A stretch of 64,000 nt of DNA from Pegea sp. RAD2-039 (lineage: Eukaryota; Chordata; Thaliacea; Salpida; Salpidae), in NCBI GenBank assembly GCA_034620365.1, contig JAQGEQ010000061.1:372001-436000 (forward strand), given 5' to 3'. Under the pieces are notes generated by a model that had not been told where the DNA came from, did not search any database, and worked only from the letters and a program-made list of their open reading frames with translations. Positions 17,290 through 35,084 of the stretch are shown in pieces. The number at the start of each line of letters is the position of its first letter. Positions within the stretch are counted from its first letter, which is position 1. Both the position numbers and the translations under genes were made by a program.

Positions 17290-20200
17290 ATGCGCGTTGT
17301 CCAGAACATTTTTGGAGTAATTGCACTAATAGTTTTAAGCAACTTGACAGTGACTCGTAGCAAGTTATTTTGTCAGCAACATGCGAAGCAAGATTCACTC
17401 ACATCTCGTGTTGGTGAGTCGTTAACTTAATTTTCGTCAATTTTTGATGATCTATTATTAATAATGTTAAAGCTTTTTTAAATCTTCATATCGCTTAGAG
17501 GCTTTGTATATACTATTTCACTTAAAGTAATATTTTTGGGGTTTTTGTGGTAATGTAACTTACGGTTTAAACGTTTAAGTTGAATTACGTTTGCTAGAAA
17601 CTCATGAAATGTAAGTCGAAAGTTATATAAATAAATATATTTTTTTAGGATTTTGACATTTATTTAATCTTAACTTTAGTTATAAAGCTCGATATTAACT
17701 TTAACATTATTTACAATTTTATTTACATTTGATATAAAAGTTAAAATTAAATTTTAAATTTAATTAAATCAAAGTGTTTTGAACAATTTTCTTGGGCGAC
17801 TTTCAAAACTCTTTTTTCAATCTTAAAGTTATTTTGTTGATCATTTTCATGTCTTTCTGAAAGCTCTTTTATAAAATAGTAAACAAAATGAAAATGATTT
17901 ATAATTCAAATTACTGATTGCTCGAATAGAACAACAAAGCTTCATAAAAAACCTTTAAAAAACAGTTTGAAGAAATAAATGTAATATATCAGTAATAATA
18001 CTTTAATAGTTTGTCATTCCAAAAAATATAACTAAAAATAAAAGCAACTAAACAAGAAGTTTCGTAATAAATTATATATAGTTTTTTTTTGAACATTTGA
18101 CTAACTATTATTTTCAAATTTGCGGTAAGCTATTAGAAATATTTAGAAAATAGACTTTTGCAGCTATCTTATATACAGTTGAATGAAATAAACTGGTTTT
18201 AAATACACATGAGAAATCCTCTATCATAAAAACTTGATAAAATCATATTTTATTCAGATTAAGAAATATTTATTAGTGTCTCATGACCAGTCTTATTAAA
18301 TTTAATCTTAATAATTTCTCTACTTAAATAAATTTGTTTCAAGCCGTTAAATGCCGGTAAAAAAACTAAAACTTATCTGTATATAAATAAAATAGAAAAA
18401 TAGATTGCAATATTTTTGTTAGCTTGCAGACTTAGAGCTTATATCTCTACATGCAATATAACATATTTATCTAAAAGTTTAACTTTAGTATTAACGTTAA
18501 CACAAGAAGTTATAAAAATATTATTTCACTTCTAAAACAGTGAAATCTGTTGTCAATCATACAAGTAAAGTCTGTAACAAGGTAAATACGTTGATTAAAT
18601 AATTTGATTTGTAAATATTTGAAATTAATTTTTGGGATTTTTAATTTAACTATTAAGACATTAAATTTCCTTTAGGATTGTTTCTTTCATCAAATCTGAG
18701 CCTTTCAAAGATAAATAAATTTCGTTCCGATCTGTGTTGCGGCAGAAGACCTTTTAGCTCATCTAATAAAATTTGTTGCTTTGGAAAAATTATATCAAAA
18801 ATAACAATGAGATGCTGTCCAGATGGTTCTTTTTTGCCTAAGGATAGCGTATGGTTAGTTTTTGATTTAAAACAGCTTTTAATGATTTAGATTGAAAAAA
18901 CGGTTTCGTATTTTAAGTATTTTAATGACTGACTTAATGACGATTTGGGCTCAATATTGAGCGCTTAAAAATTCTTCATTTTCACGAGAGTTTAAAGCTT
19001 CCTATTTTGAAAGTAAAGTAGGGTAAGCTGACATGTACAAACCATTATAAGACCCCTGGAAAATTTTCTAATACATCAAGTTTTAAAAACTTTTCATTAT
19101 TTGAATAATTTTTTTCAAGAAGCTATATTCTGCTCTTCGTATGAGTAAGACAAGATTTGTCTAAAAATGGTTTGTTTGTTGTCAAACATTGGTTCATTAA
19201 AACGTTTTTATTGTTTAAAAAAAATGTAGCGCGCTTTAAAAACTATTTTTAAAGAAATGATTAGAATTCAAGCGTTCAAGCGATCAATAAGATGAAGAAG
19301 AAACTAGTTGGAAAAGTAATGATAAGATTCTTTATCTTTGTAGTAGATGTCATCCTTCGTCTAAATGGGTTGTTAATCAAATCACAAAAATGGATTTTCT
19401 TGAACGCAAACACTTCCATTTGATAGAAGAATTGACTCTCTTACTCAAAGACACAAAAATGTAAGATTTGATTGTAGATAGGATGATATAAGAGCTGTTT
19501 ATCATGAATTTTAGAAGTTTTAAACCGATTTGTTTCTCGATAATGGTTTAACTGTTTCACTTTCAAGTTCGCTGTTTTTTTGTGATTAATTAAACTAATT
19601 TTTATTGTAACTTTTTATCGGCTTCAATTTATTATTAAATATGTTTAAAAAGTATTTTTCTCAATTATTTTGCTGTCAAGAAGGTTTAAGAACTTAAAAT
19701 ACTTGAAATCAAATTAAATTGAAAAGTTCAAATAATTAAGTTACTTCATCAGTAAATTGATAAGGAATGGAAAAAATATTATTCAAATAGATCCAAGGTG
19801 CCATAATAATTGTTTTAATAATTTAAATATATTCAAAACAACTCTCTAAAAGTGAATACTCAAAAAGAGTTTAAGATATGAATTAAAAAATAAAAGTTAA
19901 AATATTTCAATAAATTATAAATCGATAATTTTTAAGGAGACTTGATGATCTTCAAAACGAAATTATTAGGATGGATGCAAAAGCTCAACATTTTTATGAT
20001 CTATTCTTTCAAATGACAGGAATTGAAAGAACAGACTCTGAAGAAGCCGAACAAATAATTGATCTGGTAAAAATGCTTATATTTAATTTAAAAAAATTTA
20101 AAACATATCAAGCAAACATTATCACAAAAATATCGAATAATTATTAATTATAATATAATTAACTTGAATATAATGCTATTAAAATTAATACTATTAAAGC

Positions 20201-23014
20201 TATTACCAGTGATTGGCTAATTATAGGGTAACTTATTAATTACAATTTAATAATAATTAGTATAACTTTGGGTCATAAACGACATTTTTTGAAAGAGAAA
20301 TTAACAAATATAAACTCCTAATTTATCTTAAATATTTACAACTTTGAGAATTTTCAATTTTTATCTTAAAAGATCAACGCCTTGTCTAAAGTGGCTTTAA
20401 TTCAGATTATTAGAATTTCTCATGTAATGCTAACTACTTGAATAATTCCCAAAAGTTGTAGAGATTACGATCTTGGCAAAAAGTGTAGCTTGGTAGAAAT
20501 AGAAAATGTCAACTTCAAACTATTACATATTGTTGAAGATATCTATATTCTATTTCTGCATTTGTTTAGATAAAGTTTCAAAACTCGTTTGAAAAGGAAG
20601 ATGAATTAACTACAGAAAAATATGTTTCTGATGTCAACTACAACCCTAGAGTCAGTCTATCTGGTAATAAGGTAAGATCAATGTGATAAGCGCAATATAA
20701 ACAATTTCTTTACACCTGAATGAGATAACAAGAATAAAAAATGTTTTGTTTTTCACAAAAATATTTGATAAATTTTACAAATAACCGATTTATGGTTAGT
20801 AAATATCTAAACTGATTATAAAAATTTGATCTTACAAACACCAATAAAAAGCTGTGATTATTGATATTTAAATATGAACTAAACTAAATCAAATTTGATG
20901 TTCGTTTATTTTTTCTTCATCATAAGATCTATATATAGAATACTTAGAATAACAGAATTGTTTCAAATTCAAATATTTATTAAAACACTTAATGTTCTTT
21001 ATAGCTCATAAGCTTCATTTTATTGCAAAAATATCTATAAAAAAAGTAAATTTGTTATTAAGAAAGTATTTCATTTCTTTATAAAAACACTTTTTCGGTT
21101 TTTGCGTTTTAAATTTAAAGTTTGAAATTAAATACCATCATTCGAACAACTATATTTGATTTACCAGAAGTAAAAAGTAACATAACTTCATTCTTGAACA
21201 AGCCAAATAGTTTAAATAGCTCTTAAAAGAAAACGAACAACATTTTGTAAAAGTTGAACATTTAGTTTTTCTTTTTATTTTCTGCCCAAATTATACCAAT
21301 AAACCCACAATTTTAGATAAGAAATAACTTGTTCTTTTTTTAAAATAAATTGATTTTACAACCCAGAATTTTGTTAGATTGTAAGTTTTAAAAATTGGCA
21401 GATAAAAAAATTTTTAAGTAAAATTGTAAACTACAAATTAGAAATTATATTTTAAATAAAAATTATATAAAAATTACTTTATAATCTTTATTAAATAATA
21501 ATTGCTTAGCAATCTCATCTACATAGTTTTTAATTTTAAACCAATTAAAAAATAAATTGGAATATACTAAACAAAATCAAATTTATTAAATTTGAAAAAC
21601 TATTAGTTAGCAAATCTAAAAAATTTTTAAATAAATATGGACAAAATATTTATTTTTCTGAACAAAACTGTATTTTTATTCAATATGTTGGTTTAATATT
21701 TATATACTTTCAGAGTTACAAATCTTTAAACTGAAAAAAAGTTTGCGAATCATTATCACGAGTTGAAAAATTGTTCAATTGAATTGTACCAATCCTGACC
21801 AGTATTGTAATTTCAAAATAATATTTCTGTAACCTTTTGACTTCAGTACAACTTGTTAATAAGTTTATAAAATCTTGTAATTTATTTGTTATTTAAAGAT
21901 AAGAAGTAATTCTAAAAATATTTTCATTATATTTTCATAGTAAATAAAATTAATAGCTTTACAAGAAGAGCCTATCGCTTATCATTTAAGATTATCTTAG
22001 ATTTCAAACCAATTAAATATCAATCTCTTTTAAGTTTAAATTAGGATTTAACTCTGAATTTATTAACAATTTCTTTATTTGTTTTATTGGTAAGTTGTTT
22101 TAACACTGCAACGATTTCATCATAAAAGATTAGAAAAGATAAAAGACTGATATGTCTTCAAAGTTAAAATAGATAGTAATTAATTTCTAGTTTGATTTCT
22201 ATATACGTTGAATGGAAATATTTAACTTAACTGCAAACATAGGAGAAAATGAAAGTAGCAAAACCAGATAATCAAGATTAAGATCAAGTATTTAGACAAT
22301 AACGTGAAGATGAACTTAAATGAGGTAAAATATCTTCAAAATTTACTTTTTCAGATACAACAGGATCGAAAATTTGTTAATATGGATAATTCGAATGAAA
22401 AAAGTATTGAAATGTTGGTTTTAGAGCGTGAAGTTATATTGAGTGAGCTGAAAACTAAGCATTGGGAATTGAACGCGATTCATAAGGTGTTGATAAATGA
22501 AAAAGAGATTTATGATATAGCTGCAAACGATCGTCTTCTGCTGGCTAACTTTCGAGGAATCTTTGACGAGTTAATGACTTTAGTGATTGAAATGGAAACT
22601 GCTCTTCGTCAAGAATACCCTGAGTATACACGAATTGTTCGAGGTAGAAATGAAACGCAATCCGACGATGAAAAATATGCAGAAAGTCTCGAAGATTTAA
22701 GGATGCAGTTAAGACAGCGGTTAGCGGAAGACCCGATGGGTTTATCAGTAAACTCATCTGTTGATGATCCAAAGTATGATAGTCATCAAAAGAAGAATGA
22801 GTCACATACGAGACTCTGTGATTTTTCAGCATGGATTAAATATCTTGCTAGCTATGAGAGTCGTATATCAGCTATTGGACAAGATATAAGACACTTTCAA
22901 CAAGCTTTCTCGGATCGCAAAAGTGTTGAAAAAGGTGAAATCAAAACAATAGATCAGTTACAACGTTCAATTAAGCAAAACTTTTTAGTCGAACGATATC
23001 ATCGTCGGTTTTGA
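17290..23014 (+). CDS. secreted galaxin-like di-cysteine / coiled-coil protein, copy A (6 exons)
   Basis: Exons 17290-17413, 18676-18853, 19344-19460, 19937-20066, 20570-20671 and 22355-23014 join in phases 1, 2, 2, 0, 0 to give 436 aa. Residues 1-24 form a signal peptide (core FGVIALIVLSN), so the product is probably secreted. Residues 62-103 hold the cysteine block: CCGRRPF (62), ICCFGK (75), RCCPDG (88), then CRC at 101-103 split by an intron. The CC pairs recur every 13 residues. CCG-x-PF plus evenly spaced CC pairs resembles the di-cysteine repeats of galaxins (secreted matrix proteins known from coral skeleton); that similarity is by motif only. From about 115 to the end the protein is heptad-rich and charged, predicted coiled coil, with an acidic C-terminal half. 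A related gene (35084-29881) faces it. Function unknown; extracellular structural or adhesive roles are inference. Confidence 0.75.
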
Positions 23015-23060
23015 CATGTCATTGATCATGTTAGTCTTATTTCATCATTTCCTATGACTC

Positions 23061-23066
23061 ATTAAA
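23061..23066 (+). terminator. candidate polyadenylation signal (ATTAAA) of copy A
   Basis: ATTAAA lies 47 bases after the stop codon of the gene ending at 23014. It is the commonest variant signal and well placed, but such hexamers are frequent here. Confidence 0.3.
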
Positions 23067-26000
23067 CCTAAAATTACTTTCACTGGTGGCCACCAGGCTT
23101 CAGGCGTTAATTACGTAAATTAATCTCATAAAAGAGCTAACTTGGTAAAAAAAGATTATGACTCAGCATCTTTACTTATAAGAATCAACTAAGATGGCGT
23201 TTCTGCGATTAAGGTACTTACTACTTTCATTAACATTGCAAAGATAAAATATTTTTTTGAATTTTTTCTAAAAATTCTTATTTGTAATATTATGTCTTTT
23301 GGGTAATAACTTTTATCGCCAATTTTTCATCTAAGGTTTATCAAAATAAACAATAGACTCAGTAATTTGAAAAAAAGAGCTTTAGGCAAAGCATTTAACT
23401 AAACCTCGAATATAAAGTTCATTTCTTTTGTATTGATAAAAACTTTATCATATTTCTTATTCAACTGCTTTACATCATTTTCAAACCTTTCTATTGTCTG
23501 TTTCCCATTTCCAGCCTTTATTCAGATTATTCTGCTTTATTATCTTATATCGTCATTTAATCACGCAAACGCAATGTTTTGATGCTTTGTTTGTTTGTTT
23601 CATTTTATATATTTATTAATATCTAACTATTAAACTATTTGACAAATTATTCTGGGATATCGTAAAATCGTTCTAACATACTAACCGAATTTATTGAGTG
23701 AGTCAAAAGAGTTTGAAAAACTTTAGAAGTTTCCAATACTTTTCTTCAATGTTTAATTACATCATTAAAAAGGACTTTCAAATACAATATACTTGATAGA
23801 CTTTTCTTAACTTTCTAAAATAGGTTTCTAGTAATGACTTGTTGCAGATTTTAAGATCGCTATCAATAAACTTTCTTGTACATAAATTTTTTTATGGTCT
23901 GATAGCTTAGTAACTTGAACACTTAGAAAACTAGCAGAAAGCTTGTATAAGTATCAAAACTATTTTAGTATTAAAAATAGAATCCTGAAAACTTGATGTC
24001 ATTTGAAACATGAAATTCCACAACGAGTACTAAACGAAAATATTGTTTTATTTTACTTCTGATCTTTAAGTTTAAGAGTAGATGAACTGGATTTAATGAG
24101 CAAGCGATCTACAATTATTATTCTAAAAACCATTATTCTTATTTCAGACTAATCATGTAAGCTTTGGATTTAATTCTACAACTTTAAATATTAAACGTTT
24201 ATCTAATTTTTACTATGAAATGAACAAAGTATGTTTTGTAAATTGCTCATTTAATTGTTACTGATTGTATGCAAAATTATAAACAGCATCTAATGACCTA
24301 AACTGTAAGACAATATCTATTCTTTCAAATATGTAAACTTTTCTAACATCATCTGTATGATCGAGAAACAATAAAAATGTGTGCTTAGTAAGGTTCAAAA
24401 ATATTTCTGACTCTTGATAATTACAGAATTATTCTGAATATTAGTTGAAAATATACAAAATTTAACATATCATAAAAATATTTTGAAATCGACAAAATCT
24501 TGGTAAATTACATTAAAAGTAGAAACACAAGATGAAATTTTCATATAATCTTTTTACATATATTAAAGTAAAATTTCAGTGCGATAAAACCAATATTTTA
24601 GCAATAGTAGTTTTTTCAAACAACGGTTGCTTTGAAATTTGAACTAAATTGATGAAAAACATTTCTTATCTTTTTTGTTTCTTAGTTTCTAATCAATTGT
24701 CATTCATTGAAAGTTCTTTGACAAATGTAAACTAGATTTTCTTAGTGATAAATCATGCATTTAACTTCGAACAAAATTTACTTTTATTGAGACTTAAACA
24801 ACTCTTGAAAAGCAAAATTTGAAGTTCTTTGAAGATATCAGAATGCGATCATACTACAACTTCGTAGCCACAGTTCTATAAAGTCCGATTAATCACTTTT
24901 TAAAACAAAAGATTTCTTTTTATGTTCAATTTTTGTTTTAAATAAAGGTTTCAGAATTTTCAAATTATCAAAATTATCAGATTTTAACTTTTTATTTAAA
25001 CGATAACTTCTAACTACTTTTGATTTTCTAGAAATATTTTAGGCTTGTTTAGAAGTAGCCACAAATATATTAGTTTAGATACAAAATAGCAACCCTGGTC
25101 AATATCAACTTACTTATCAATTAATTTTTTCTTAAAAAATATTTTTGTGGCTTCAACGTTTTTCAAACCTCAAATTTCTTTATAATTTAATTTAAAAAGA
25201 AAATATCGAAACACTAGTTCTCAAGTGAACTGAAACCTTTTGTGTAAGTCATAAGTTGCTTAATTTTCTCATAAGTCACATATAAACTTAATTCAGCATT
25301 TTTGAGAATTAATTTTAGAAATGATTATTGAACAAAAAAGACGCGAAATAAAAACCACTATGAACACGGTTCAGAAACCTAAACAAAGCTTTTCCAAATA
25401 CTCCTTATAACTATAAATAATCAAATGGTTTTATAAAGCAGCTTAGATACATCTATTTTTCATGAAAGCTGAACTTTATAATTTTGTTGAGTTTACAGTA
25501 AAAAGTAAACTAAGAAAAGCTTGATGTCTTTTTGACCTAAAACCAATCCAGTATAGTTAACAGTACTATTAAATTCAAATTTAAAATACAAGTACACCAA
25601 ACAAATTTATAAGTAGATAACAGTATGCATGGATACTTGTTGATAAATTGTAAAAAAATATAACAAAAAATACTCAGTTTTATTATTAGAAACCTCAGCA
25701 CAAGTAGCTAAAACTGATTAAAGTGAACTTAAGTTTGGATCTTCAATCAAAAGCGTTTAAAAATCATAAAAAAATCTCGTACAGTTGGCTTTGACGGTGA
25801 ATGGCGATAAAAAACATTGGAATACAAACAGTTGATACGAGATTTGTTTAAAAGGTTTGAATTTACTATACCATCTTAAAAACCCATTTTGGCTTAAATG
25901 TGCTGAAATGGAGCTTTTGTAAACTGGAGTTTTTAAATGATAAATTCGTTCTAACGGTTATCGCTTTAAATAAAATTCATTTATTTGTTTAAAAGTTAAA

Positions 26001-29000
26001 ATCCTAATTCTTAAATTGTATTTACTATTACTCAGTTGTGTATTCAGATTATTTACTTTAATTTTTAGATTTAAATTACTTAATTTTGAATAAATGAGTA
26101 ATTAAATGATTCATTGTTAATAATGATTCTTAAAGTCAAGTTAAATGGTATAAAACAAGCAAATGTTTATAAAGTGATGATAAAATACAATAAACTTGTG
26201 TAACCAAGTATCCGTACCTCACTTAATGACTAAAATAAACATATACAAAGGTAAGAGATTTACTAAAAATTGCAATTATAACAGTTAAGGAGTTTTACCT
26301 AAGCGTAGACTACCGTTTTGTGGGTCTGGGCCTTTTTGATCGTGTGCTTGAAAACCTTGGTGAACAGAATTATATATCTAAATTGAAGACAAAGTGTTTT
26401 TATAAAAAGGTCTTTTATACACCAATATATAGTTTAGTAGTTCAGGTCTAAGGTATAAGTCGTCTTCACTCCACCTAGAGGTGGCAGCAGTACCTAATAG
26501 AAAAAATATATATAACTTAATATTTATCAAAATATTTGGTATGAAAATGGCAAGATTCCTATTTGAGTAGATGCTATGATAGGTGATGCATGTAAGTTTC
26601 CTTTACCTGTTTTTTTACATTGATAAAATCTTTTTCAGTGCAACTGTAAACAACCCAGATGCTTTTTTACACTTAAATGAACAACTAACTACATAAAACT
26701 AATGTAAAGTTAGCAGTTCGATTTTCATTCAGTATCTAAAGACTTTTACGTTTTTGAAACTTTAATCTCGAGTTGAGAACCACTAATTTCGACTTTTATT
26801 TCAAACTTGATGTAATTGTGTGTAAAAGTGTTTTTATTTAATGTATTTTGGTTCTATTTGAATATTTTAAAACATCATAACAATCAACACTTTGTTATTA
26901 TATGAAGGATTCCTAAATTTATATCAAATATTCCTTGCTACAACCAATAATATTCTTCTTCATTTTTAATTCCGAGCATTTGTTCTGTTCAGGGACAATG
27001 TTTCTTAAACTTAAAAAGCTCTCAAGAAACTAAGGTTTGTTGTGAAAAAGTAGCAACTCTTAACTGCCATTAGTGGTGAAATAATTTAACTAAGTTTTTA
27101 ACAACTGACAATTTCACTTCGAAGTATTTTTATTGGAAGTTCTTTTATTAAAAATAACTGAATTTTTCACCCAAGTGAAAAATGCTTACTCGTTGTTTAG
27201 TTTACCAATTTACTCATTTATAAAGAAAGTGACAAATACTGAATAACAACTAAGCTTGAAAAGTTTGCAAAATTATAATTATACAAAGTTTCAAGTTATT
27301 AATTTTTATAAAACAATTGTCTAATGCAAAAAATATTTGATATTAAAGAGCTCTGTAATGACAATTCTTTAAACTAGGACTAAATTAGTTCTTATTGTTC
27401 AGTCGATGGTTGAAGCTTTATCTTATTTCAAAATAAAAAGCTTAATTAAATATAAAGAGTAACAAATATTTTTTTTAACTTTTAAATGTTTAGTAATTAT
27501 TATGTGGAAGGTAAAGATAATCTAAAGTTATTACCATCAAAACCTCTTTAAAGAAGCTTTATATTTGGTTTTATCTGCAGTGCTTCTGCAACTTTTGTAC
27601 TAATTTATTTTGCACTAATGATAATTGTTCCCCTACTTGAAAAAATGGTATTTTTTACGGTGGTTAGAAAATATTTATAAATTTTATCTCTAGATTTTAT
27701 TTTTTGTTTTTTAGTTTATCTTTGTATAAACTTGACAAGCTTAAAAAAGTTTATTTTTTTATTTTTTAAGTTAATTTGTAAAAAGATTTAAAAACATGTA
27801 TTTTGAGCTTACTCATTGTTGCAGCTCTCATTAGCAACTTGTTAAAGATGACTAAAAAAATCTTATTTGCTACTTACCAAACCTTTTGTTAAACAGTAGA
27901 ATACTACATCACTTCTTTACATATAAATCTTTTGAATTTAATCATTAAATGAATAATCTTTTCGTTATTTAACGAAAATTTTGTTGTAGCTTAAAAGTGT
28001 TCGGCTTTGTCGTAAGATTAAAAAAAAATAACTTCAAGTTCTTTCTTATTGAAACTAATATAGAAGTTTTAAAGTAAAATCTTTAGATAAAGATAAAAGC
28101 AACACAGTAACTCCAAAATTAGTAGTGCAATTACTGACAAGTTTTGACAACCAATTTTGATAAAAATGACTTAAAATGTTTTATTTCACCAAAAAACTAA
28201 GTGAAACAAATTTCTTGAACTATTTGTTAAGTAAAGTTAAAATAATATCTTAAAGTTAAAATCAGAATTAAACGATTTCTTCAATTGAAATGTTTGACAA
28301 TTTAGATATTTCTTATGAAACGTTTAAAACATTAAAACATGAAAAGTAGAAATTGTAACCAACAGCATAACATAGGTATAAGTAAGTATTGATAAAATTA
28401 CTATACGGTCATTAAAGATATTCCTTACAAAGATAAGACGTTTTACTATAATATTCTGTATACAAAATAATAATTGTAGGCTCGTGTACAAAATATTCTA
28501 TATTACATTACTATATCTTTTTCTTAAAGAAAATTAACGTACAAAGTTGAACTTTGTTTAATGCTTGCCGGTATAAATGCAATGAAAACCGATGAAATAA
28601 GACAAAGGAGGTTGAATGAATACAAACCTAACTTTGAAAGAAATGAAAAAAAAGTATTAAAAAATTTTAATGATTAAAGTATGTGTGATAATATCTGATA
28701 TCATTAGCTTAAAGTTCAAAATAAACGTAGTTGGTGATTTTTGCAAAAATTTCAAGTTGAACAAGTAAGTTCATTTTTAGTACATTAAAAGGTTTGTACA
28801 AATATTTTATTCAAACTTATTTATGAAAAGCTTTTAGAGCTTTCTTCAAAAAGTGAAATTTGTATTGGCTGGCCACAAATTTAGCAGTTTTATTATAAAG
28901 TATTTTTTACAAACATTTAAAACAATCTTCAACTAAATCATGAACCACATTTTAGTAGTTCATCTTCTTTATGATTTCATAACTTTTAAATTTATAAAGA

Positions 29001-29880
29001 TATTATTATTCTGAGCTTAACAATTTATAAAAGTTTAAAATTCACTCAACTCTAGTACCACGTTTGCTATTTATTCGTATGCATTCTTTTATGTTAAGTC
29101 GTCTAATTTATTAGATACCGTAAAGATACGAGCTTCAATTACTTTGTAAGATGTGCAGATTTCGGTTTTGTTTGGATAAAAACTATATATAGTGCAAAGC
29201 ATAAAGATTAGGATAAGCTTATCTCCATATAATTTTAGGCTTGTTATATAAAATCTAATATAAGATACAGATAATAAATAGATAGAATAGATTAATGCAA
29301 GAACGTTTTGTAAAGAATACAAAAGTTAAGTTTAGATAAAAAGATTTAAAAACCTTTAACAAAAACCTAGATTTAGAAGACAACAACTGCTAGTAACATT
29401 TGGTTAAAAACTTTAACAATCTATACTTTCAGCAGCTTATTTAGTCTTTACATTTTTCATCTTTGTTAAGTGTATAACTATTTGTAAATAAGAAAGTGAT
29501 TTTAAATGTTTTGTAAAAGCTACAAAAGTTTTCTTATCAAACGTTAAAAGTATTGCTTATGTAGATCAAGCATTTCTATTTTTAATCTAAAGATATAAAA
29601 TGATTTTAAATGATTAAAAAACATTTTTATATCTTAATTAATATAAGTGTACAATTGTTTGGAAAGTTTTCATGAAAAAAAACGAAAACTAAAAAAAAAC
29701 TTGAATAACGAAAAGTTTGTATCGATAGAAAAATAAAATGAAAAAATAAAGTAACCAAGAAGAGGTTAGTGTTTTCTAAATTAAATATCAACAAATACTG
29801 AAAAAAGAAATGAAATTTATCAAAAATAGAGGTGATACAACTATTACAAAAAGCCTTAGAAAAATGTTAACAATAAATTG
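23067..29880. other. spacer between the two convergent galaxin-like genes
   Basis: About 6.8 kb of AT-rich sequence. One unusual open stretch of 70 codons without an ATG (26239-26451, plus strand) carries the only locally GC-richer segment and is discussed in the findings. A small palindromic patch GGTGGCCACC occurs near 23086-23095. No third gene copy or transposon was recognised. Confidence 0.4.
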
Positions 29881-32800
29881 CTATTGGTAAAAATGTAGGA
29901 TTGTTTTGAAAACATAGATATTTGACAGTTTACTAAAATCTTTTGTTGACAAGATATCTGATTTGGCAATTGATATTCTTTCTTCAATGAGTTTTAGAAA
30001 AAGTTCCCAAGAAGAAAAGTTACAGTTATAAATGCTAATAACTTCTATGAATAAACTTTCAAAGTCTTCATTTGCTTCGTATTGTGTCTCGTCTGCTTCT
30101 TCTTTGAGTGAATTAAGTAAAAGTATCTTTAAATATTCTGACGTAAAACTGTTTTGTGTCTCATTAGTCATTGCAAGTATTTCATTAGTTGAGAAAGAAA
30201 AATTTAGCATCTTTGTTTCTTCTGCAAATGTCTTTTCCATTTGAGTCACCAATGTTAGCTTGTTGTCTAGTATTCCATGTAGATGTTCAATTAGTTTGAT
30301 ATCATTGTTGATAATTGAAAGTGTTGAACGAACGTTTTTCAAATGGTTATTAAATCGTCTGAGAATTAGTTTTTTATCTGATATCTTTTCCAATATTTTC
30401 TCTCTTTTTAGGACCAACTTCTTCATTATTTTTACATTTCCTTCGTCTCTTAGATTCACTTGAATTTCTTGAGTTATCTGTCAGAAATAAATATGATTGA
30501 TTTATAGCTTCCTACTTTTGATTAGTTTTAATAAAGCAGTTAGTAAAGTTAAACTGCTAAAAATTGTTGAGCAAAATATTTAAAAGACATTAAGAATGTT
30601 TTGACAGATATAACTTATACGATAGCGTATTGTCAACTTTTGTATACAAACAATCTAGATGTTTACAAAAAAAAATGAAAAAATGATTATCTTAAAAAAA
30701 ATCCTTTTTATTGATATGTTTAGAAAATTCACAAACATTTTTCTCATGTTACTTATCACAAAACAATAAAGAAGATATTTTACAAAAGATGTTTTGTCCT
30801 ATGTTAAAATGAATAAATTAAAAAGGTTTAAGATTTCTATAACCTTATTGAAAAGCTTTTGTATCATTCTAGTGGTAGAAATATACTTATAAAAACTAAA
30901 GTTAAAGGTTTATAAACAAAATAAAGTTTAAATTAGATAAATTTTTTTTGTTTTATTTTTTGAAGTTCAGAATTTTCTTTTATAAACTCTATAAACTTTT
31001 TCATAATAATTTAACTCAATTATAGATAAACTTATTATTTTAACCATATAAATTCAAATAATTTTGTACATTTAGAAAACAAGCCAATTTTTGATGTTTG
31101 ATTTTTATTAGGTTTCTGCTGCAAAATAAGGTATAGTTTTTTTAACTTAACTTTGTTAAAGTTTTATGAAATATATTTTATCATTTTGTTTTCAGTTCAT
31201 ACCTTATTTAAGTAACTGTGATCTTCAAAGAACAAGAATTGAAAGTGAAGATTTACTATCTAAAATTCGTTATAATTTAAAGATTTATTCTTATTAGTGT
31301 TAAAATATTTTTAGGTAAAAACTAAAATGAAACAAAAGTCTGTTTTCACTCTTTGCATAAAATTATTTTAATCAGATAAGGTATAATTTAATTAAAACTT
31401 GTAGATAGAAAAAGTTGTAAACAAATCTTATAGTAATCTCCAGAAAAAATAGTTTAACGTTAAACTTGTTTCTCTTTAAACACATTAGCAGTTCAACGAG
31501 TGATAATTCAACTTCAGTTGTAAAACGTTTTCAATCTACAATAAGTATAGAAAATAAGTCAATTCAAAATTGATATCTAAAAGTATCTGACATTTTATGT
31601 ACATTTTAGTATTTTGACATTTAATTTTTAATTGAGGAGTTTTAACAGATTTTCATTCTAATTAGTAGATAAATCTATTTCAGATTATTACTTCGTCAAA
31701 GATAAGATATAAATTCGTTTAATTGCATATACAGTTATTAGTTATTACATAATATCTAGAATTTTCTGTTTAATGCTTGATAAAACCGATTGGTAAAAAT
31801 ACAAGTTATATATCTATATAATTAATTTTCCTAGCTACTGTTTGAAAGTAATTCTTTTAAAGAAATGCACTTTTCAAAACAAAAGTTTTAAAAATCAAAA
31901 AACCCTTCTTCAAACATAAAGTTTTTCTTAATTTAATCTGAAAAATGTTGAACTTCGAGCTTTAAATTTTAAGCTTTAAATGGTATCTAGTTATTGTGGA
32001 AACTTAAAAATGACATGTACCAAAAACAAGCTTTACTGATAAAACTTTAAGCGATTCATTTTAATAAAAATATTCAATATTAGCTTTTAGATTTGGATTT
32101 TTTATCATGAGTTGTAACAAGTATTATTTCACAAGCGTGACATTTTACAAGAATGTATAGAATTTTAATTTTTCTATTATTTCTTTTATTATTTTCCTAA
32201 TGATAAATAAATTTTCAGATTTCATAAAAGTTCAGATTAAATACTTTTTCCGGAAAATTGAGAAAAAGCTTTAAATATTTTATTCATTTATTCAATGCAT
32301 GACTGCGAATTACAAAACCAACATCTCTTAGCGAACAAAAAGCAAATAATATGAGCAAAAAGATAACTGAAAGGTCTTAAGTAAATGCACTACTTGTATT
32401 TGAAAATTATAATAACTTAAAAATTTTAGTTGATAATACAATTGATATTAGTTAACAATCTGATTATATTTATTAAGTGATAATTTATATATGGGAAGTA
32501 TAAACTGAGTGGTTGACCGACATTCAGTTAACTTTTTCTAATTTTTTGCTTGATCCGTACCTAATGTTCTTATAATTTTAGAAAAAATAGAACTATTTAA
32601 TAAAAAATTTTAAATATTATTACATTTTGTTGAAAATATTTTGAACAAGTTTGTTTAAGCAATACAACAAAACTTACATTTACATAAATACTAATTTTAA
32701 TCATTAAACATGTGAGATTACTATAAGATTAACAAAAAAACATATCCTAAACCATGTGAAGTAACAAATCTTCATCATTTATTTTTTATTTTGGTTTTAA

Positions 32801-35084
32801 ACGGTTTAATTTAGCATCAAAAATTACTTGAATCATAATCTGTTACTGATAACAAAAATTAATTATTTCATTTATTTCAAGAAAAAGAAAGTCAAAATTT
32901 TTTATAGTTCTTGATTAAACCATGTATGTTTGTATAATCCTCTATCTAAGCATACACCTGCTCATTATGTTGCTAAATAGGCTTTGATCTAAATATGATT
33001 TAACGGAGTTGCAGAATATGATTTATGTTTACAAAACATAGAAATGTAACAGTTTTGTAATAAAAACCTATAATAAAAGATATTGGAATAAGTAAAGATA
33101 AATATCAACTAAAAGAAACACTACAAATTGTAAAGTTACAAGTTACAAGACTTTTATAAGTCAATAAAAAGATTTATTAGACACTTACAAGTACTTGGAG
33201 CCCTCTCGACCATTTCATGGTTGATCTGAGACCACGGAGTCTTTGAGGTAAAGTATTTTTCAACGCTTCTTTTAAAGAACTCATTTGTTTTTTAACTCCA
33301 TTCATTCTATTTTCATTTTCATTCAAAAAGATTATCTGATGAAGCAAGGCTGTACGTGTATGAATTGCAAATATAGTTTTATTGATATATTAACACAAAA
33401 ACTTGATGTAAACATTTGTTTTGTTTCTTAGTAAATAAGATTCACAAGAGATAATCGTTTGTTTATAAATTATGAATTTTGCTTGAAGTTTATTAAATCT
33501 GAAACTCATCATAAAATTGATTACAAATAACTGCTCACACAATTAATTTTCATTTTAAACTTAAAAAGTTTTTTGTGTTTATTTGAAAAACTTACTAGCT
33601 TAAATATATAATCAACTTCATCAGGATCAACTCTTATTGAATCATCCACCAACACTATCACCTCTTTGTATAAGTCTCTAGTAGTTTTCTCCATCGTTTC
33701 GATTTCTTCTTGTAGCTGAATAATTGGGCTACAATAAAAAGATTTGTTTAAAAAATTGAAAGTTTTAGGTGGTTTTAATATTTTGAAGCTTATTTTTTTA
33801 ATCGTTTCAAACGTTAAAAAATTTCGGTTAATTAATTAATAATTAAATTTAAAATTTATATTTAAGTTAAGACTAAAAAAATCAGTTTTCATTATAACTT
33901 TTTTTAATGTTTCTAATTTCTATAACTTTACTCAAAGGTGACCCGGTTTAAAAAAAAACTTATCATTTGTTCATACATAGAGAAAGTTTATTCAAATTAC
34001 ATTAATTTTGTTGAAAAGTACATTTCACTGTAAAGTAAACTTTGAAAAACCTTAAAAAGTAAATATATCATAAGAAGGTAAATATTTTAATCATCTTGTA
34101 TTCAAACTAAACTTCATTTAAATAAGTTTTTAATTGCACGTTATCTGAAACAGTTTCACTAAAAATTTCAGACTTTTATGCAGATTTCCGTAAATTGAAA
34201 GTATTTGGTCGATTATCTATTTCAACTTTTCTATAATTTCCAGGATTAGTGATTTTGAAATCAATTTCTGTGAATCTGTAGCGATTTTTAACACTTTTTA
34301 ATTCGATCATAGCTTAAAAGAAATAACCATAAAAAATACTTACTTTTCTAAATTACTAATAATATCTTTTAAGTCTCTTTCAATATCATTAAGCTGATTC
34401 TCTAATGAGCTGATTCTTATAATCTGATCTTTAACCCAGCTTGATGCAGGATTACATAAACTAAAATGTAAAATAAGTTTGTTAAATATTGTGCAGAGTA
34501 ACACTAAAAATGAGTAAAAATAACAAAATAGGAATTAGTGTTTAATTTCTTAAATAGTTATTCGTTAAAAGTTACAACTTTATAACCATTTAATTACTAA
34601 TCATACATTTACCAGACACTATCTATTGGTACAATTGTTCCATCAAGACAGCATTTAAACAAATCTTTTTTCAATACTTTGCCCATGCAACATAATCCAT
34701 GATTAGAACTAAATGGTTTTCTACCACAACACAAGTTTGGTTTTTCATATTGTCCTGTAAAATCGTTTTTATAAACTTTGGGGTATAAATATTAATGTTA
34801 ATTTTGAGATTTTTCTTATTCTAATAATTTGTTTATAAAATCTGTAATAAATTTTAGCAATTTAGAATACATTAAATGAATGTTTTTAAATATATTTACC
34901 ATTAATAATTACTACTAGTTAAAATGTGTGTATCAATCAACAAACGTTTAGAAGGTCTTGGTAATTTATTTGATGGTCTTTTGATTCGGCATGGTAATTC
35001 GTCATCCCTTACATTAATGGAAAGGTTATGAACTGCAGCGAAAGTTAAAAAAAATACCAGCTGAACATTCCATCTTATCAACAT
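29881..35084 (-). CDS. secreted galaxin-like di-cysteine / coiled-coil protein, copy B (6 exons)
   Basis: Minus-strand exons 35084-34913, 34754-34613, 34460-34344, 33728-33596, 33335-33189 and 30477-29881 give 435 aa in the same phase series (1, 2, 2, 0, 0) as the plus-strand copy at 17290-23014. Residues 1-22 form a signal peptide (VQLVFFLTFAAVHNL). A basic proline-rich segment (about 33-47) lies before the cysteine block CCGRKPF (66), LCCMGK (79), KCCLDG (92), CLC (105-107), again one CC pair every 13 residues. Both copies continue with C-x-P-x-S-x-W-V and then a long coiled-coil tail. Exon 3 is exactly 117 nt in both genes. For exon 1, two donors four bases or less apart keep the phase; GTAATT at 34912 fits better. 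The tails have diverged strongly. Likely an old inverted duplicate that is still under selection, since all six exons are open. Function unknown. Confidence 0.74.

Follow-up and report, generated by a model that had tools for sequence, protein, structure and literature searches.

Convergent paralogs in a salp genome are predicted to encode secreted proteins with a galaxin-like di-cysteine block and a coiled-coil-bearing tail

Galaxin-type proteins carry regularly spaced pairs of adjacent cysteines (CC). Two reports discuss such di-cysteine proteins mainly as repeat arrays of animal skeletons: coral skeletons contain galaxin-like proteins, and sponge spicules contain calcarins (PMC12419799, PMC2726143). 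Here we describe two genes, A and B, that converge within a 64,000-nucleotide (nt) stretch of the genome of the salp Pegea sp. RAD2-039 (C259:372001-436000, hereafter the window; GC content, 26.5%), part of a 105.7-Mb assembly of 387 contigs. Each gene joins a single galaxin-like block, the head, to a longer tail that includes a predicted coiled coil. On balance, we infer with moderate confidence that the two genes are ancient paralogs whose products are secreted, disulfide-rich and oligomeric and serve in the extracellular matrix, in mucus or as a glue.

The A and B proteins resemble galaxins and galaxin-like proteins (PF24748; corals Galaxea and Acropora) in their predicted secreted-type leader, their regular CC pairs and, in a structural model, strands at those pairs. 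They differ in their tail, which is predicted to be mostly helical and to include a coiled coil, in scoring under the Pfam cut-off and in bearing one short block where galaxins have tandem repeats of ~30 residues (PMC2726143). That source also describes Acropora galaxin-like 1 and 2 (660 and 582 residues) as secreted proteins with a di-cysteine part and a differently charged second part, a layout like that predicted for A and B; their second domain is acidic and their repeats are many, whereas A and B have one block and a tail with a predicted coiled coil. Neighboring paralogs, as at this locus, are reported for Acropora millepora galaxin-like genes (PMC12419799). That report also describes the calcarins of Sycon ciliatum, which, as predicted for A and B, combine di-cysteine hairpins with lone cysteines outside the CC array, but which have 10 to 23 di-cysteines versus 3 in A and B and, apart from a Reeler domain in one of them, no recognizable domains (PMC12419799). 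In the open-access literature, we found no description of a galaxin-like head on a coiled-coil tail, a result that does not establish its absence from print; none of the matches to galaxin plus coiled coil had either term in its title or abstract. Matrilins and COMP/thrombospondins are secreted multidomain chains with cysteines beside a short coiled coil, as predicted for A and B, but their head domains differ, and none of them appeared when A and B were compared with Pfam and PDB. The A/B architecture is unusual, yet it appears to be a variation on the known galaxin theme.

A preliminary description of the window had proposed a tail-to-tail pair of six-exon genes, and both models were recovered at that place, A on the plus strand (17290-23014) and B on the minus strand (35084-29881). 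Their features are as follows, with positions counted from the first letter of the window.

17290..17413, plus strand: gene A exon 1, with the start codon, a signal-peptide-like leader (MRVVQNIFGVIALIVLSNLTVTRS...) and one Cys; assigned from the frame, a GT donor, phase 1 and hydropathy
18676..18853, plus strand: gene A exon 2, galaxin-like di-cysteine block with CC at residues 62-63, 75-76 and 88-89; PF24748 match below the cut-off
19344..19460, plus strand: gene A exon 3, 117 nt, with a CxC (residues 101 and 103; an intron splits the first Cys codon) and the beginning of the predicted coiled-coil stretch
19937..20066, plus strand: gene A exon 4, remainder of the predicted coiled-coil stretch (residues 121-162)
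20570..20671, plus strand: gene A exon 5, short linker exon
22355..23014, plus strand: gene A exon 6, predicted helical tail up to the stop codon, with a sequon at N316 and Cys 372
23015..29880, no strand: spacer between the stop codons of A and B, 6866 nt
29881..30477, minus strand: gene B exon 6, tail up to the stop codon, with a sequon at N331 and Cys 378
33189..33335, minus strand: gene B exon 5, linker exon
33596..33728, minus strand: gene B exon 4, continuation of the predicted coiled-coil stretch (residues 99-148 overall)
34344..34460, minus strand: gene B exon 3, 117 nt, with a CxC (residues 94 and 96; an intron splits the first Cys codon) and the beginning of the predicted coiled-coil stretch
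34613..34754, minus strand: gene B exon 2, galaxin-like di-cysteine block with CC at residues 55-56, 68-69 and 81-82; PF24748 match below the cut-off
34946..35084, minus strand: gene B exon 1, with the start codon, a signal-peptide-like leader and a dibasic KR at the exon end, ahead of the Cys block

The structural details reported previously held up well: the spacer measures 6866 nt against the 6.9 kb noted, and the intron phases (1, 2, 2, 0, 0) and the 117-nt exon 3 are common to both genes. The protein lengths did so in part, since A has the expected 436 amino acids (aa) but the recovered B model has 424 aa, and the 435 aa noted was not reproduced. All 10 introns have GT-AG ends. The last exons are open over 660 nt (A) and 597 nt (B), which has a probability of ~3e-9 and ~2e-8, respectively, per frame at this base composition, uncorrected for the number of frames. 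As sequence, genes A and B are real.

The two proteins are 31% identical in a global alignment, and the same residue is encoded at 121 of 392 aligned codons. Likeness was judged for each exon separately, with 500 shuffles as the control. Exons 2, 3 and 6 exceeded every shuffle (exon 6 scored 145 where the best shuffle reached 63, and exon 3 scored 55 versus 32), and the exon 4 score of 34 was reached by 7 shuffles. Thus, the earlier statement that the copies are very different outside the cysteine block applies to exons 1 and 5 but not to exons 3, 4 and 6. Nine of the 10 cysteines occupy shared alignment columns, including Cys 372 of A with Cys 378 of B, and the tail sequons (N316 and N331) also coincide. 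This shared sequon and cysteine are what a protein of the secretory pathway could carry. The copies have one more sequon column in common, but its position within the leader gives it little meaning.

Divergence was estimated by the NG86 method. Over the whole alignment, nonsynonymous divergence (dN) was 0.77 and synonymous divergence (dS) was 2.45, a saturated value that makes their ratio merely indicative. The corresponding values were 0.38 and 2.0 for the head and 0.85 and 2.35 for exon 6. A dN below dS, in the whole and in the head, fits purifying selection. From the exon likeness and dN/dS together, we therefore conclude at the sequence level that A and B are an old duplication under constraint, with the head the most constrained part, and not two genes with only the head in common.

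The same comparison bears on whether head and tail belong together. If the models reflected a splicing error, real transcripts would stop after exon 2 or begin at exon 3, and the absence of significant likeness between the copies in exons 1 and 5 would fit. However, exon order, phases and the 117-nt exon are equal in copies that are only 31% identical, and their likeness crosses the exon 2-3 boundary (DSVC-C-P-S-W) and continues in exons 3, 4 and 6. An error of this kind is highly improbable. The related concern, raised in the preliminary description, that head and tail are separate genes is made less likely by a paralog that keeps this exon order and these phases and has a homologous tail.

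The pattern CC-x11-CC-x11-CC-x11-C-x-C, with a 13-residue CC period, occurs once in each protein. Even the loose pattern CC-(8-20)-CC-(8-20)-CC had just two occurrences when all six frames of the window were read, one in each gene, and none in 20 mononucleotide shuffles. The top Pfam match was Galaxin_repeat (PF24748) for both A (23.4 bits, E = 6e-5) and B (21.9 bits, E = 1.8e-4), for which the curated cut-off is 28 bits. Each head is one block of three CC pairs plus the CxC and does not contain tandem galaxin repeats of ~30 residues. Exon 2 was modeled from a two-row alignment. In the best of five models (mean predicted local distance difference test score [pLDDT], 74), short strands were predicted at residues 16-19, 22-25, 29-31 and 37-39; the first of these ends at the second CC pair and is followed by a two-residue turn and strand 22-25. 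The modeled strands at CC pairs look much like the hairpins that PMC12419799 reports in galaxins and calcarins.

Both sub-threshold scores leave room for a head unrelated to galaxin, in which a chance cysteine framework happens to meet the profile; across these cysteines, gene A has a weak match to a CBP/p300 RING model as well (E = 0.086). We consider an unrelated head improbable. The same family is the best match of both copies, and a genome query with the head recovered the sister gene (E = 1.4e-12) and, weakly, three other galaxin-like loci (E = 0.012 to 0.09). Four other galaxin-like blocks were scanned, of which two also fall under the cut-off (20.6 bits for an exon on contig C35 and 26.1 bits for a phospholipase A2 [PLA2] gene) and two exceed it (30.4 and 29.5 bits). 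Moreover, 13 is the commonest CC spacing in each of the 10 other galaxin-like loci that were counted, alone in 8 and tied in 2, with all six frames taken and some loci overlapping. The claim of a galaxin-like di-cysteine head therefore stands as a resemblance in best match and spacing, though not as family membership at the curated threshold.

Exons 3 to 6 make up about three-quarters of each protein. A COILS-type score placed one coiled-coil stretch of 42 to 50 residues in exons 3 and 4 (A, 121-162; B, 99-148), and its best window was reached by 7 (A) and 1 (B) of 1,000 tail shuffles. Exon 6 alone was no more coiled coil than its shuffles (527 and 605 of 1,000 as high for A and B, respectively), and its model was mostly helical, with a mean pLDDT of 43.7. 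The long coiled-coil tail originally proposed is thus reduced to one short predicted coiled coil per protein, and the profile search proposed alongside coiled-coil prediction gave, as described above, a PF24748 match under the cut-off in both. Upstream of the head, the leaders of both proteins are hydrophobic (up to 2.99 over 11 residues in A), in keeping with the signal peptides previously suggested. Past the leader there was no membrane-span-like stretch, the highest 19-residue hydropathy being 1.15 (A) and 1.43 (B).

The tails are mildly acidic, with net charges of -11 (A) and -6 (B). This bears on the idea that A and B are organic matrix proteins of a mineralized structure, by analogy with the coral galaxins and sponge calcarins found in skeletons and spicules (PMC12419799, PMC2726143). 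The charge is slight for such a role, the single short block is not a long tandem array, and, according to PMC12419799, cnidarians without skeletons have galaxin-like proteins too. A mineral matrix role is quite improbable.

In genome queries with the A tail (339 aa) and the whole of B, only A and B were found at an E value of 10 or less, apart from one weak match on contig C6 (E = 0.057) that was taken as coiled-coil chance. Exon 3 of B as a query matched only itself and not exon 3 of A, and the A tail reached the B tail at only 3.7e-5, through exon 6; because the copies barely find each other in this way, more divergent tails may escape the search. The small number of copies is relevant to a role in defense or mucus, in which the head would act on microbes and the coiled coil would merely raise avidity. 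A review names galaxin among the antimicrobials of squid surface mucus (PMC8547416), and a better-conserved head with a faster-changing tail would fit such a role. An arms race, however, usually gives something other than two old copies with no wider expansion found. By analogy with squid galaxin, a defensive function is conceivable but distinctly unlikely.

A secreted, disulfide-rich oligomer, the reading we favor, could be assembled as follows. The leader would route the chain into the secretory pathway, where the three CC pairs may fold as a small beta-hairpin ladder like that of galaxins. The CxC directly after the head would lie at the mouth of a coiled coil of ~45 residues, which would assemble the chains as a dimer or trimer, either homomeric or A with B, and interchain disulfides would possibly lock the oligomer. 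The helical and possibly N-glycosylated tail might bind partners or lengthen the rod. By analogy with what is thought of galaxin blocks in skeletal matrices, the head could serve as a cross-linkable knob.

Several observations weigh against this reading. Both heads score under the PF24748 cut-off, and for this reason we call them galaxin-like and do not file them as galaxins. The mean pLDDT of the five head models spreads from 46 to 74, and a comparison of the head model with PDB folds gave 31 matches with an E value of 10 or less but none of 0.001 or less. Exons 1 and 5 have no significant likeness between A and B (181 and 288 of 500 shuffles, respectively, scored as high), and dS is saturated. 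The signal peptides were judged from hydropathy and are predictions only, and the exon 6 model, at its low mean pLDDT, gives no settled fold. A PDB sequence search yielded no clear relative (best E values, 0.09 for A and 0.12 for an A/B profile). The PDB sequence matches with an E value of 1 or less (1 for A and 14 for the profile) were judged to be coiled coil or chance. Against NCBIfam, there were only three weak matches, each far below the cut-off, and a scan of viral contigs for relatives gave three stretches that fit a pattern, none of which was confirmed.

A stronger version of the oligomer reading is that A and B depend on each other as the two subunits of a secreted heteromeric fiber or glue peculiar to this lineage, with galaxin-type heads as cross-linking knobs and coiled coils that select A with B. 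We regard this as unlikely; if true, it would be a new use of the galaxin module, capping an oligomeric rod instead of forming a tandem array. The old convergent pair offers a small, testable example of a domain fusion that was then kept for a long time.

The PF24748 scan of the genome gave 54 rows, 21 of them on contig C113. All 21 (one above the cut-off) were dropped because the two C113 loci inspected, L017 and L024 (C113:227916-235543), proved to be minisatellite. There, a long array of a 14-residue unit (GKTVxYxAADVNVC, ~42 nt), open for up to 771 codons, mimics the galaxin profile. After this removal, nine contigs beyond that of the window had PF24748 over the cut-off, alone or with neighbors, and sequence from six of the nine was inspected.

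Other galaxin-like loci have varied partners. Locus L008 (C15:1110355-1113603, frame ~1501-1749) is a single open frame of 301 aa with a leader, a dibasic site, a PLA2 domain (PF00068, 96.5 bits) and a di-cysteine block (26.1 bits, under the cut-off), an unusual fusion. The open frame of L006 (C47:720949-724215), 1185 aa in length, has a galaxin-like block and, after it, a long Gly/Ser/Met repeat of silk- or glue-like appearance that runs to the end of the locus. In L005 (C264:364023-367088), the galaxin-like exons have TSP1 and sushi exons as their direct upstream neighbors on that strand. L007 (C27:191268-194648) has an FN3 domain close to a galaxin-like match, both on one strand and perhaps within a large multidomain protein. 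We infer from these sequences that the galaxin-like block is a shuffled extracellular module in this genome, with same-frame partners seen for PLA2 and Gly/Ser/Met. The single block on a coiled-coil tail, together with the blocks within or beside exons of the PLA2, sushi, TSP1 and FN3 domains, supports the view that it is a general extracellular module put to many uses. Minisatellite also occurs at ~1989-2367 of L003, amid tandem galaxin-like frames, in a locus whose GC content is 42% although the genome is elsewhere AT-rich.

Around the A/B pair, no gene was recognized by eye in the spacer (23015-29880), whose frames were not scanned against families and whose longest stop-to-stop frame is 79 aa. 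Ten single frames around the pair were scanned, and none reached a Pfam cut-off; one had weak EF-hand matches. The flanking frames, judged by eye, presumably include parts of EMC1 and of a retinol-dehydrogenase-like gene. Inverted repeats over the A/B region numbered 99 pairs, short and AT-rich. Among the 25 longest, the longest pair (43 nt, 77%, AT-rich) has one arm 0.9 kb upstream of A and the other 0.8 kb upstream of B. With no shuffle control, these DNA repeats weigh neither way on an inverted duplication of A and B. Genome-wide, introns and extracellular domains such as TSP1, sushi and FN3 point to an animal. COX1 and the families of nematode cuticle collagen and arthropod cuticle gave no match; the two cuticle scans were silent in the control genomes too, so their zero counts carry no weight. 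Elsewhere in the genome, a full-length eukaryotic 18S rRNA gene lies at positions 940-2730 of L040, and a shortened 18S rRNA copy, separate from it, lies in AT-rich DNA on the minus strand of L041 (contig C125, positions 941-1715).

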